Source of the DNA: Verrucomicrobiota bacterium
GTDB lineage: Bacteria; Verrucomicrobiota; Verrucomicrobiia; Limisphaerales; JADLHS01
Length of the DNA stretch: 32,870 bases
NCBI GenBank assembly: GCA_025350905.1
Contig: JANXWY010000349.1
Coordinates: 1 to 32,870, forward strand
Direction: 5' to 3'
A model generated the notes under the pieces. It made no database searches. It was given only the letters and a program-made list of their open reading frames with translations, and was not told where the DNA came from. The position numbers and the translations under genes are program-made. Below, in pieces: positions 10,804 through 31,052 of the stretch (the stretch's first letter is position 1; each line of letters starts with the position of its first letter).

Positions 10804-10815
10804 CGCCAGGCAACC

Positions 10816-11028
10816 GCTTAGCCGTAACTATTCAGTCGGAATTCAACGCAAAGGCGCAAAGAGGCCAAGACGCAAAGTGGACACAGCGAAATCCGAACCG
10901 CTGCGGACCGGCAGCTTGCCTCTCCAAAAGGTGACACCCAAGACTGCCAGTAAAGGTTTTCCTAACCTTTGCGCCTTCGCTCCTTTGCGTCTTTGCGTTG
11001 GAAGTCTTCTGCATGGCTACGGCTAAGC
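10816..11028. mobile_element. MITE-like non-autonomous element related to the IS at 29518-31052
   Basis: The left end (10816-10845) matches the left terminal repeat of the IS at 29518 at 24 of 30 positions, sharing CTTAGCCGTAAC and GGAATT. The right end (11028 backwards) begins GCTTAGCCGTA and matches the IS right end at about 20 of 30. Just inside are inverted arms rich in CGCAAAG/CTTTGCG (10844-10877 and 10967-11000). The whole 213 bp could therefore fold into one long hairpin. There is no coding capacity and no clear target duplication. It lies directly after the MFS gene and may also work as a terminator. Identities were counted by eye. Confidence 0.72.
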
Positions 11029-11189
11029 GCTAAGGACAAAATTGCACCCCGAGAACTGACGGGATTGGGGTTTGAAAGCGCTCCGGAGTGGGGAGATCGG
11101 GATTGGAAATTCACCTTGCCGCTTTGCGAGCTTGCCTGTCCGCCGCTTTGTGCCCCAAGCTGTCCGGGTTTAAAACCTAAAGCACAACC

Positions 11190-11960
11190 ATGTCATTACT
11201 CTCCGGCAAACTCGGCCTTGTCTTCGGCGTCGCCAATAAACGCTCCATCGCCTGGGCCATCGCGCAGGCCTGGCACAAACAAGGCGCCAAACTCGCCTTC
11301 ACCTATCAAGGCGATCGCCTCAAGGAAAACGTGGAGGAACTGGTCGGCACATTCGGCCCGGACACGCTGCTCATGCCGTGCGACGTCACCAAGGACGATG
11401 ATATCGCGACCGTTTTCAAATCGGTCGGTGAAAAATTTGGCCAGCTGCATCTCCTGCTCCACTCCGTGGCGTTCGCCCCCAAAGCGGCGCTCGAAGGCGA
11501 ATTCGTGAATACGAGCCGCGAAGCGTATCGCATCGCGCACGACATCAGCGCGTATTCCCTCGTGGCGCTGTCGCGGGCCGCCGCTCCGTTGATGACCGAC
11601 GGCGGCAGCATCATGGCCATGAGTTATTACGGCGCGGAGAAAGTGGTGCCGCATTACAACGTCATGGGAGTGGCCAAAGCCTCGCTGGAAGCCAGCACGC
11701 GGTATCTTGCCTACGACCTCGGCCCAAAGAAAATTCGCGTGAACTGCATCAGCGCCGGGCCGGTCAACACGCTGGCCGCCCGCGGCATTGCCGGTTTCAA
11801 CGAGATGCTCAAGCACTATGAAGCCCACGCTCCGCTCAAGCGCAACGTAGTGCCCGATGAATTGGGCGCCACCGGAGTTTTCCTCGCCAGCGACGGCGCC
11901 GCGGCCATCACCGGCCAGGTCATCTACGTGGATGGCGGTTACCAGATCATGGGGATGTAG
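11190..11960 (+). CDS. fabI: Enoyl-[acyl-carrier-protein] reductase (NADH), FabI
   Basis: Catalyses the last reductive step of each round of type II fatty acid synthesis, reducing trans-2-enoyl-ACP with NADH in the cytosol. The 256-residue protein is a divergent SDR of FabI type. GVANKRSIAWAIA (13-25) is the FabI form of the cofactor-binding turn. Tyr 146, Tyr 156 and Lys 163 (SYYGAEKVVPHYNVMGVAK) sit at the same numbers as in the E. coli enzyme. SAGPVNTLAARGI (187-199) is the substrate loop targeted by triclosan-type inhibitors in this family. It appears to be a single-gene unit. The 161 bases between the MITE and the ATG show no clear promoter. Confidence 0.96.
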   Translation: MSLLSGKLGLVFGVANKRSIAWAIAQAWHKQGAKLAFTYQGDRLKENVEELVGTFGPDTLLMPCDVTKDDDIATVFKSVGEKFGQLHLLLHSVAFAPKAALEGEFVNTSREAYRIAHDISAYSLVALSRAAAPLMTDGGSIMAMSYYGAEKVVPHYNVMGVAKASLEASTRYLAYDLGPKKIRVNCISAGPVNTLAARGIAGFNEMLKHYEAHAPLKRNVVPDELGATGVFLASDGAAAITGQVIYVDGGYQIMGM

Positions 11961-26226: not shown

Positions 26227-27456
26227 ATGAATTTCTTTGTCCAACACAGTGAATTGCGCGACCTCTACGACCGGGTCGCCGCTGGCGAACGCATCACCGA
26301 GGCCGACGCGTTGCGGTTGTTTGAATCCAAAGATCTGAACGCGCTCGGGGCCATCGCCGATCTCGCGCGGCAAAAAAAAGTGGGCAACCGCGCCAGCTAC
26401 ATCATCAACCGCTACCTCAACTACTCGAACTATTGCATCCTCTCCTGCCAGTTCTGCTCGTTCGCACGCAAGAAACGCGACGCGGATGGTTTCGAGTTGA
26501 CGATTCCGCAGATGGTTGAGAAGGCGCGCGAGGCGTTGAAACTCGGGATCACGGAGCTGCACATCGTCGGCGGACTGCATCCGTCGCTGCCCTTCAGTTA
26601 CTACGTGGAGATGTTGAAAGCATTGAGCGCGCTCAACGCCGAGGTAGGGTCGTCGCGCTGCGACGACCGGACGGCGCAGCGTGCCGTCCCTACCCAGAAG
26701 CTGCAACTCAAATGCTTCACCGCGATTGAAATTCTCCACCTCGCCTGGCTCGCGAAAAAATCCGTCGAACAAACGTTGATTGAACTGAAGGCCGCCGGAC
26801 TCGAATCGCTCACTGGTGGCGGCGCGGAAATTTTCCAGAAAGAGGTTCGCAGCGCCATCGCCAAGGGCAAGGAATCCGCCGAGGAATATCTGGACGTCCA
26901 TCGTACCTGGCATCGCCTGGGCGGACGCAGCACCTGCACGATGCTGTTTGGCCACGTCGAATCGCTTGCGGACCGCGTGGATCATCTGCGGCAATTGCGC
27001 GCGTTGCAGGACGAGACGAAGGGCTTTGTCGGCTTCGTGCCGCTGCCGTATCAGCCGGAGAACAACGACATCCCGGTGAAAACGCCGCCCACGGGCTTCG
27101 ACGCGTTGCGCACCCTCGCCGTGAGCCGCATCTACCTCGACAACTTCGATCACATCACGGCTTACTGGGTGGGCCTGGGGATGAAGCTGGCGCAGGTGGC
27201 ATTGAGCTACGGCGCGGACGATCTGCACGGGACGATCCTTGAGGAACACATCTTCCACATGGCCGGCGCGACCTCGCCGCAATTGCAGACCGAAGCTGAG
27301 ATGCTGAAAGCCATCCGCGAAGCCGGCCGCATCCCGGTGCAGCGGAATACGTTTTACGAACCGATCAAGGTGTGGGATGGCGCGGCAGCAGCGACCGAAT
27401 CCGAACCACCGTCGGGCAAATCCAAAATGCTGGAGGATAATCTGGCGACGGCGTGA
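26227..27456 (+). CDS. mqnE: Aminofutalosine synthase (radical SAM), with palindromic repeat inserted
   Basis: Makes aminofutalosine from an enolpyruvyl-benzoate and SAM in the futalosine route to menaquinone. The protein has 409 residues. Cys 70, 74 and 77 (CILSCQFCSF) form the CX3CX2C site for the 4Fe-4S cluster. ELHIVGGLHPSLPF (110-123), CFTAIEI, SLTGGGAEIF, TCTMLFGHVES and FVGFVPLPYQPENN follow in the MqnE order, so MqnE fits better than MqnC. Residues about 140-156 (VGSSRCDDRTAQRAVPT) are extra and come from an in-frame palindromic repeat. Homologues pass straight to the LKCFTAIEI strand. The 3' end of this gene recurs twice downstream. No other mqn gene is in the window. Confidence 0.92.
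   Translation: MNFFVQHSELRDLYDRVAAGERITEADALRLFESKDLNALGAIADLARQKKVGNRASYIINRYLNYSNYCILSCQFCSFARKKRDADGFELTIPQMVEKAREALKLGITELHIVGGLHPSLPFSYYVEMLKALSALNAEVGSSRCDDRTAQRAVPTQKLQLKCFTAIEILHLAWLAKKSVEQTLIELKAAGLESLTGGGAEIFQKEVRSAIAKGKESAEEYLDVHRTWHRLGGRSTCTMLFGHVESLADRVDHLRQLRALQDETKGFVGFVPLPYQPENNDIPVKTPPTGFDALRTLAVSRIYLDNFDHITAYWVGLGMKLAQVALSYGADDLHGTILEEHIFHMAGATSPQLQTEAEMLKAIREAGRIPVQRNTFYEPIKVWDGAAAATESEPPSGKSKMLEDNLATA
26643..26694. repeat. Compound palindrome inserted in frame in mqnE
   Basis: An outer 7-bp stem GGTAGGG/CCCTACC (26643-26649, 26688-26694) encloses two perfect hairpins. They are GGTCGTCG-5-CGACGACC (26648-26668) and GGACGGC-7-GCCGTCC (26669-26689). The 52 bases are almost wholly paired. 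They add about 17-19 residues to MqnE without shifting the frame. This is the shape of a dispersed palindromic repeat. Confidence 0.88.
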
Positions 27457-27520
27457 GAAAATCCCGTTACGAAGACAACCTTGCACGAAAGCCGCTTCAC
27501 TCTTACATTTTGACCGTTCT

Positions 27521-28190: not shown

Positions 28191-28382
28191 GGCGCGACAT
28201 CGCCGCAATTGCAGACGGAAGCTGAGATGCTGAAAGCCATCCGCGAAGCCGGCCGCACGCCAGTGCAACGAAATACTTTTTACTAACCGATCAAGGTGTG
28301 GGATGGCGCGACAACGGCAACGGAAGCTGAGCCGCCGTCGGGCAAATCCAAAATGTTGGAGGATAATCTGGCGACGGCGTAA
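28191..28382 (+). pseudogene. Second copy of the mqnE 3' end
   Basis: Its 192 bases align without gaps to 27265-27456 (codons GATSPQLQTEAEM to the stop). I count 20 differences, about 90% identity. Twelve are synonymous or swap the stop codon, which is the pattern of a gene that diverged while functional. One change (GAA to TAA, codon 32) now stops the frame. It has no start or upstream part and sits directly after toxin 1. Confidence 0.9.
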
Positions 28383-28455
28383 AAATGTTCTTCCCCTTGC
28401 GCTCAAAACATTCGCCACTGACAACCGCCCCTTTCCGTTGTAAGCTTTCGCCGTC

Positions 28456-29517: not shown

Positions 29518-29547
29518 CCTTAGCCGTAACGATGCAGTTGGAATTGG
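29518..29547 (+). repeat. Left terminal inverted repeat of the IS
   Basis: Thirty bases beginning CCTTAGCCGTAAC. They differ from the right repeat at positions 4, 22 and 28. Confidence 0.88.
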
Positions 29548-29562
29548 GCCACCGATGGTGGA

Positions 29563-30993
29563 TTGATTGTTTTTGTGAAGAAAACACAGCAATCAGCGGG
29601 CACCCGCCCGACTCACCAAACGGTGGCATCGAAGATTGAATTCCAAAGTGCCAGCAAGTCCATCCAAATCGAGTTCACCGACCAGCAGCTCAGCCCTCAT
29701 GCCGGGACCGCAACGTTCTGGTCTTTTCTGTGGGGCAGCGGTTGGATCAGTCTCCTGGAGAAATGTCTGCCTCATCCCCCACCCAAATCCAACAATCACC
29801 TCCCACCGTTGTGCAAAGGGCTGGGCTTCATCCAGGGACTATTATGCGGGGCCAAGAAACTGACGCACGTGGCTTATCTGCGCCGCGATCCGCTGGTGCC
29901 CGAAATGGTGGGCATCAAACGAGTGCCTAGCCAATCGGTCCTGAGCCGATTCTTTCAAGGGTTCTCCAGTGCCGGACGCAACCTGAATTGTTTCCGTACG
30001 TTGTTTGGCTGGTGTTTGGAACGCTTGCCCAGTCGTCCCGGAGGGTATGCGCTGGATTTGGATTCCACCCGATTGTTGCACGAGGATGGACATCAGGAAG
30101 GAGTCGAAGTCGGCTACACGCGAGTGGGGACCAAGCCCTGTTTGCCTCCGCTATTGGCAGTGCTGAGTGAAGTGCGGCTGGTGGCGGCTTTTTGGTTGCG
30201 TCCTGGCAACAGCGGCTGCGCCAACAACGGGGTGAGCTTCTTTCTGGATCTGTGGGACAAGCTTCCGCGGCACGTGCGCTTGCGGGTGGTGCGGGCCGAT
30301 TCGGGCTTCTGCAACGGAGCGTTATTCGCCTTGTGGCAAGGGCTCAAACTCCACTTTGTGGTGGCCGCACGCTTGCGCCAGCCGATTCAGCGACTGATTC
30401 AAAAAGAAATCTCCTGGCAGGACACTGAACTGGAGGGAACACAAGTGGCGGAGCTCAGTTACCAAGAGGCTGGCTGGCCAGTGAGTGCCCGGTTGGTAGT
30501 GATCCGACACCGGTTGGCGGACAAGCAAGGACGAACCGGAGGCAAGTTGTTGTTCGATTGTCCCGGCTATATTTATCAGGGGCTGGTGACCAATCTCCCC
30601 CGAACCGAAAAACTTCTGGCGGTGTGGCGGGAATATAACGGGCGGGCAGCCTGTGAAAACATCATCAAGGAATTGGATGCCGGTTACGGCTTGCCGGAAT
30701 TGGCCTGCGGGCAGTTCTGGGGCACCGAAGCGGCGTTGAGCCTGGGAGTACTGGCACATAATTTGATCGTGCTGTTCGAGCGCCAACTCGGATGGCAGGA
30801 AGTGGTGACGATCGGCAGCCTGAGATATTGGATGTTCGTCACTGCCGGGGTGATCAGTCACAGCCAGGGACAGACGACGATAAAATTGGCGGTGCCGCAG
30901 AAAGAAAGAGCATGGTGGAAAAGACTTTGGGAAAAACTCTTGTCCCCGTTTCCCAACTGCAATGCAGTAGAAAACCGTCCGGCCTTGCCGTAG
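29563..30993 (+). CDS. IS1380-family DDE transposase
   Basis: Cuts and joins the IS ends. From TTG 29563 it has 476 residues, and GTG 29575 is an alternative start. The catalytic acids are visible as LDLDST (Asp 165 or 167), VRADSGF (Asp 246) and, after a long beta-rich insert, YNGRAACENIIKEL (Glu 365 in the Y-R-E-K signature). GYTRVGTKPCLPPLLAVL and FWLRPGN are further IS1380 marks. The reading frame is complete, so the enzyme may be active and could serve the MITE at 10816-11028. Confidence 0.9.
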   Translation: MIVFVKKTQQSAGTRPTHQTVASKIEFQSASKSIQIEFTDQQLSPHAGTATFWSFLWGSGWISLLEKCLPHPPPKSNNHLPPLCKGLGFIQGLLCGAKKLTHVAYLRRDPLVPEMVGIKRVPSQSVLSRFFQGFSSAGRNLNCFRTLFGWCLERLPSRPGGYALDLDSTRLLHEDGHQEGVEVGYTRVGTKPCLPPLLAVLSEVRLVAAFWLRPGNSGCANNGVSFFLDLWDKLPRHVRLRVVRADSGFCNGALFALWQGLKLHFVVAARLRQPIQRLIQKEISWQDTELEGTQVAELSYQEAGWPVSARLVVIRHRLADKQGRTGGKLLFDCPGYIYQGLVTNLPRTEKLLAVWREYNGRAACENIIKELDAGYGLPELACGQFWGTEAALSLGVLAHNLIVLFERQLGWQEVVTIGSLRYWMFVTAGVISHSQGQTTIKLAVPQKERAWWKRLWEKLLSPFPNCNAVENRPALP

Positions 30994-31022
30994 CGGTGAG
31001 CTATGAAAATTACCTCCAAAAA

Positions 31023-31052
31023 CCGATTCCTACTGCATCGTTACGGCTTAGG
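31023..31052 (-). repeat. Right terminal inverted repeat of the IS
   Basis: The reverse complement begins CCTAAGCCGTAAC and matches the left repeat at 27 of 30 positions. Confidence 0.88.

Follow-up and report, generated by a model that had tools for sequence, protein, structure and literature searches.

The window, i.e. the whole stretch of 32,870 nucleotides that was analysed, carries a non-coding element of 201 bp (10822-11022 after refinement of its borders; CCGTAAC...CTACGG) in the spacer that separates an MFS gene from an enoyl reductase gene. An insertion sequence (IS) of the IS1380 family, CCGTAAC...GTTACGG, lies at a distance of 18.5 kb. The initial annotation had described positions 10816-11028 as a MITE that shares its ends with an IS1380-like element about 18 kb away; the coordinates proved correct to within a few bases and the distance agreed as well. 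The features are as follows:

10817-10821, plus strand: left copy of the CTNAG target site, CTTAG, with another N than the right copy (duplication established on related copies)
10822-11022, unstranded: MITE proper, 201 bp, non-coding; matrix scores of the ends 29.2 and 24.3 bits (IS1380-end matrix); G000, G011, G006 and G028 contain full-length relatives
10822-10838, plus strand: left terminal inverted repeat, CCGTAACTATTCAGTCG; 24/30 identity to the IS left end, flank included
10845-10877, plus strand: left CGCAAAG arm (arm complementarity and alignment of CGCAAAG elements)
10922-10933, unstranded: degenerate CAC-N6-GTG centre, CTCCAAAAGGTG, one mismatch (centre search)
10967-10999, minus strand: right CGCAAAG arm, inverted (arm complementarity and alignment of CGCAAAG elements)
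11006-11022, minus strand: right terminal inverted repeat, reading CCGTAGCCATGCAGAAG on the minus strand; 21/30 identity to the IS right end, flank included
11023-11027, plus strand: right copy of the CTNAG target site, CTAAG (duplication at family level)
29519-29523, plus strand: left-hand CTTAG of the IS target duplication, identical to the right-hand one
29524-31046, plus strand: IS1380-family IS, 1523 bp
29563-30993, plus strand: open frame of the IS1380 transposase, 476 aa; NF033539 with 208.7 bits (cut-off 180), PF13701 with E = 6e-29
31047-31051, plus strand: right-hand CTTAG of the IS target duplication, identical to the left-hand one

The IS is placed in the IS1380 family by a transposase above the cut-off, terminal inverted repeats and a 5-bp target duplication, and its transposase gene is the only one of this family found in the assembly of the window's genome. 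Elsewhere in the window, two copies of a 195-nt direct repeat (27265-27459 and 28191-28385; 89% identity), which copy the 3' end of a radical-SAM CofH/MqnC-like gene, bracket a two-gene cassette encoding DUF433 (PF04255) and DUF5615 (PF18480) proteins that looks like a toxin-antitoxin pair.

The interior of the 201-bp element is rich in CGCAAAG and would fold into one long hairpin with -88 kcal/mol (z = -7), a value that none of 200 shuffles equalled. Arms of 63 nt (10815-10877 and 10967-11029) are 78% complementary, in line with the inverted CGCAAAG-rich middle described before. The sole listed open reading frame touching the element (10969-11508) starts with TTG in the right arm, leaves the element and overlaps the beginning of the enoyl reductase gene in a different frame. 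A search against Rfam gave nothing credible, the one miRNA family reported being far under its threshold. The element thus has the properties of a MITE: it is short and non-coding, its complementary ends are shared with an autonomous element, and copies of it are dispersed.

The ends had been reported to match those of the IS in 24/30 and about 20/30 positions, and 24/30 and 21/30 were measured. Outside the element and the IS, the best match in the window was 18/30 for the IS left end and 20/30 for the IS right end; since a chance place reaches 20/30, the right end is weak if taken alone, and it is this value that speaks for a similarity arising by chance or by convergence in G+C-rich hairpins. 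The two ends were also scored on a weight matrix. It was derived from 20 ends of IS1380 relatives in other genomes, mostly of Verrucomicrobiota; these ends have the sequence CTWAGCCGKAACGATKCAGTTG and resemble the MITE ends. Statistics for the window's own genome come from searches and from a 610-kb sample of it, in which 15 sites of at least 14 bits were found versus 1 in the reversed control. The matrix scores (29.2 and 24.3 bits), the control counts, the facing orientation of the ends, the existence of other copies and the CTNAG duplication common to them contradict a chance or convergent origin, which is refuted and to which we assign next to no probability.

Copies of the element and their target site

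Fifteen distinct CGCAAAG copies with two ends, from the window's genome (G000) and its relatives G011, G006 and G028, were aligned; the alignment has 16 rows because one sequence was entered twice. Full-length relatives are present in the window's genome on C380, C466, C75, C481 and others, and elsewhere in G011, which belongs to the same family as the window's genome, G006 and G028. The copies are about 195-212 bp long, with one of 261 bp, and have a common layout of end, GTCGGAATTCAACGC, CGCAAAG arm, middle, inverted arm and AAGACTT-type right end. Copies with the same facing ends thus exist, and neither of the outcomes named beforehand as fatal to a MITE, a lack of further copies with these ends or matches by chance only in a wider search, occurred. 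Of 293 genomes of the order, 154 contain the end motif CTNAGCCGKAACNATKCAGTYG, often at tens of sites. Its count was highest in G610, with 318 + 311 = 629 sites in 5.0 Mb versus 0 in the control. The copies fetched from G610 (L212-L223, L271-L299) are mostly one 173-bp MITE at 92-97% identity, which suggests a recent burst.

The ends of IS and MITEs all start with CTNAG or a sequence near it. If CTNAG is duplicated upon insertion, N is expected to be the same on both sides, in direct orientation, and agreement was compared with that of shuffled pairs. The N was the same in 19 of the 24 G610/G668 copies of the 173-bp MITE, where shuffling gave a mean of 8.5 (p about 1e-4). Among MITEs with other arm types it was the same in 22 out of 27 (mean of shuffles 8.8, p about 5e-5), and among IS in 11 out of 14 (mean of shuffles 5.2, p about 0.001). 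The counts include related copies and are, therefore, not fully independent. Bases beyond the five of CTNAG did not agree between the sides in the G610/G668 family. A duplication lying 4-5 bp further out than CTNAG was also considered and rejected, as no match was found there. At the family level, CTNAG is the insertion site of IS and MITEs alike, and its five bases become duplicated; since the duplication is common to both, one insertion chemistry serves the two. Where two copies abut, the overlap is exactly five bases long, which is what insertion of one element into the other's CTNAG would give. A CGCAAAG MITE (L003; G000 C466, about 26558-26783) adjoins a second end with another arm type, one CTAAG being common to both. 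The right end of the L106 IS runs directly into an end of opposite orientation (GGATACGGCTAAGCCGTATCCATGCAG), again with CTAAG common to both ends.

For the window MITE the duplication is a family-level property: CTTAG on the left and CTAAG on the right differ at N (T/A), so that its insertion footprint is not intact. This disagreement at N, together with an identity of 73-77% to the best full-length relatives, makes the window copy look old. The orthologous spacer between the MFS and the enoyl reductase gene lacks the MITE in G004 (same genus) and G006 (same family), a case of insertion polymorphism. The empty sites that had been proposed as a check were thus found as spacers without the element, but a clean empty site was not obtained because these spacers have diverged. 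Nor did the loci fetched from genomes related to G610 yield one for the G610 MITEs, as they did not span the flanks.

Autonomous partners were searched in 30 genomes, and IS1380-family transposases were found in 18 of them, many belonging to other subfamilies. G610, the genome richest in MITEs, encodes an IS1380 transposase next to a matching right end, the left end being off the contig. G011, which is rich in CGCAAAG MITEs, gave five transposase matches, and the three loci examined (L334, L350 and L357) had none of these ends. The surroundings of the transposases L331 (G627) and L333 (G477) also had no end of the motif; these five loci probably represent other IS1380 subfamilies.

Arm types, the common centre and end-less CGCAAAG repeats

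In all DNA fetched, 56 end-paired elements were found, and they carry at least 12 arm types of similar size: CGCAAAG, CACAGAG, CACGAA, CGCAGAT, a type resembling GTAG REPs (GACAGGCG), several GC-rich palindromes and the G610 type. The same IS1380 ends thus enclose a dozen other arm types besides CGCAAAG. The window's genome alone contains CGCAAAG, GACAGGCG, GGCGACG (L038) and CGGCGTTCACGCCG (L042), as well as CACGAA and CCCTCACCC cases with weaker ends. A GTAG tag is visible in the GACAGGCG arms of L144, L050 and L039, which are relatives and not the window copy. One CACAGAG-type MITE of 379 bp (L188; G477 C9, about 59115-59493) has a second GC-rich inverted repeat apparently nested inside it. 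Pairwise identity of representatives was 0.74 in the first 22 bases, i.e. the ends, versus 0.32-0.36 in the arms.

A CAC-N6-GTG motif was found near the exact middle of 14 of 29 elements tested versus 3.5% of shuffles. It recurs across most arm types; the exact motif is absent from about half of the 29 elements and from several arm types. At the left ends of the IS, a conserved motif resembling the centre (CACCGTTTGG or CACTGTTTGG) lies about 30-45 bases inwards; the centre of the MITEs may be derived from it, judging from the likeness of the two. Ends and centre flank the arms in both halves of the element, which makes it unlikely that the arms arose by one insertion event. Since the same ends enclose many arm types and the centre recurs in many of these, the arms look like interchangeable cargo.

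An alternative way to obtain inverted arms is homogenisation within the element by gene conversion or hairpin template switching, by which any captured sequence would become an inverted pair. In the arm types seen, the two arms are indeed inverted relative to each other on either side of the element's middle. For the CGCAAAG family, however, arms within an element resemble each other no more than do arms taken from different elements (identity 0.688 within and 0.697 between the aligned elements; permutation p 0.87), which disfavours homogenisation in this family, and we consider this explanation unlikely.

CGCAAAG repeats also occur without the ends. Among 36 distinct CGCAAAG pairs, at least one IS1380 end was found in 18 of the 24 with a size of 145-215 nt and in 0 of the 12 with other sizes (Fisher p = 3e-5), a size border that was picked after seeing the data; half of the pairs examined were without either end. 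With one mismatch allowed, the centre was found in 18/24 and 1/12 of the pairs, respectively. Short end-less CGCAAAG hairpins are present in other classes of Verrucomicrobiota. None of 398 genomes from another phylum contained the strict motif AACGCAAAGRCGCAAAG, so the view that CGCAAAG-type repeats are common in environmental bacteria was not borne out in that phylum. With a looser CGCAAAG pattern, the sampled sequence yielded mostly single matches, probably by chance.

The size split and the end-less hairpins indicate that the CGCAAAG arm is both cargo of MITEs and a free-standing repeat. The arms may therefore be an independent repeat, either a structural hairpin or one spread by another system, to some copies of which IS1380 ends became attached, so that the IS carries the repeat and did not create it. 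Besides the pairs of other sizes, which are without ends and almost without a centre, and the end-less hairpins of other classes, this is favoured by the GTAG-tagged REPs, which resemble another of the arm types and are a known independent class (PMC3733652). On the other hand, the short forms could be internal deletions or remnants of MITEs, and an independent origin of the arms is compatible with the window copy being an IS1380 MITE. We regard the chances of such an origin as evenly balanced. The suggestion that the transposase of the IS is what spreads CGCAAAG repeats was thus supported by the ends of most full-size pairs and did not extend to pairs of other sizes or to the end-less hairpins elsewhere; the IS1380 type explains the CGCAAAG arms only partly.

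Proposed mobilisation and comparison with known elements

Taken together, we put the probability at about 0.88 that the window feature is a MITE derived from an IS1380 subfamily and part of an unusually diverse, apparently modular set. According to the proposed mechanism, a transposase of this subfamily, one of which is encoded by the IS of the window, would recognise ends of about 17 bp (CCGKAACNATKCAGTYG), move the MITE and insert it at CTNAG with duplication of the five bases. The window copy is a member of the CGCAAAG-arm family within a larger set in its Verrucomicrobiota order, whose members have common ends and a common target site, often a CAC-N6-GTG centre, and unrelated hairpin arms. 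We infer from sequence comparison that elements of the IS1380 type probably mobilise the MITEs in trans, that the MITEs would be related by descent through their ends and centre, and that they would have exchanged arms. More tentatively, and with somewhat less than even odds, the IS1380-type end, CTNAG and an inherited CAC-N6-GTG centre, derived from a motif just within the IS left end, could form a chassis for swapped, unrelated arms in a modular MITE superfamily. If so, IS1380-type transposition would be one vehicle that spreads several families of hairpin repeats through Verrucomicrobiota.

CGCAAAG, CACAGAG and CACGAA inverted hairpin repeats recur in these genomes, and many hairpin repeats between one pair of transposon ends, with one target site, offer a concrete and testable vehicle for at least part of them. 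The question arises of how a mobile element could swap both arms yet keep its ends and its middle. Moreover, a target site, CTNAG, can now be given for an IS1380 subfamily.

A limited search of the open-access literature gave no description of IS1380-ended MITEs in Verrucomicrobiota. IS1247 of Paracoccus, an IS1380-family element (NF033539) of 1672 bp with inverted repeats of 16/13 and a 5-bp direct repeat (PMC3281130), is alike in transposase family, end length and 5-bp target duplication, whereas the subfamily described here uses CTNAG as target. The TMos of Paracoccus consist of an IS1380-family element plus neighbouring DNA (PMC3281130), whereas the MITEs are without a transposase. REPs are palindromes of 20-40 bp, frequently accompanied by RAYT transposases (IS200/IS605 family), and the GTAG-tagged REPs are abundant in the verrucomicrobium O. 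terrae (PMC3733652). The GTAGGACAGGCGTCGCGCCTGTC arms inside some MITEs look like GTAG REPs by their sequence, but the MITEs differ from these in having terminal inverted repeats and a target duplication. The Tn3-derived TIMEs (PMC4133298) are likewise non-autonomous and have the ends of an autonomous transposon, with a different transposase family and different ends. The bacterial MITEs RUP, NEMIS, Nezha and ERIC (PMC3733652) are similar in being short and non-coding, with IS-like ends, many copies and a strong hairpin; what sets the present elements apart is that one type of end and one target site serve at least 12 unrelated arm types, often around a common centre.
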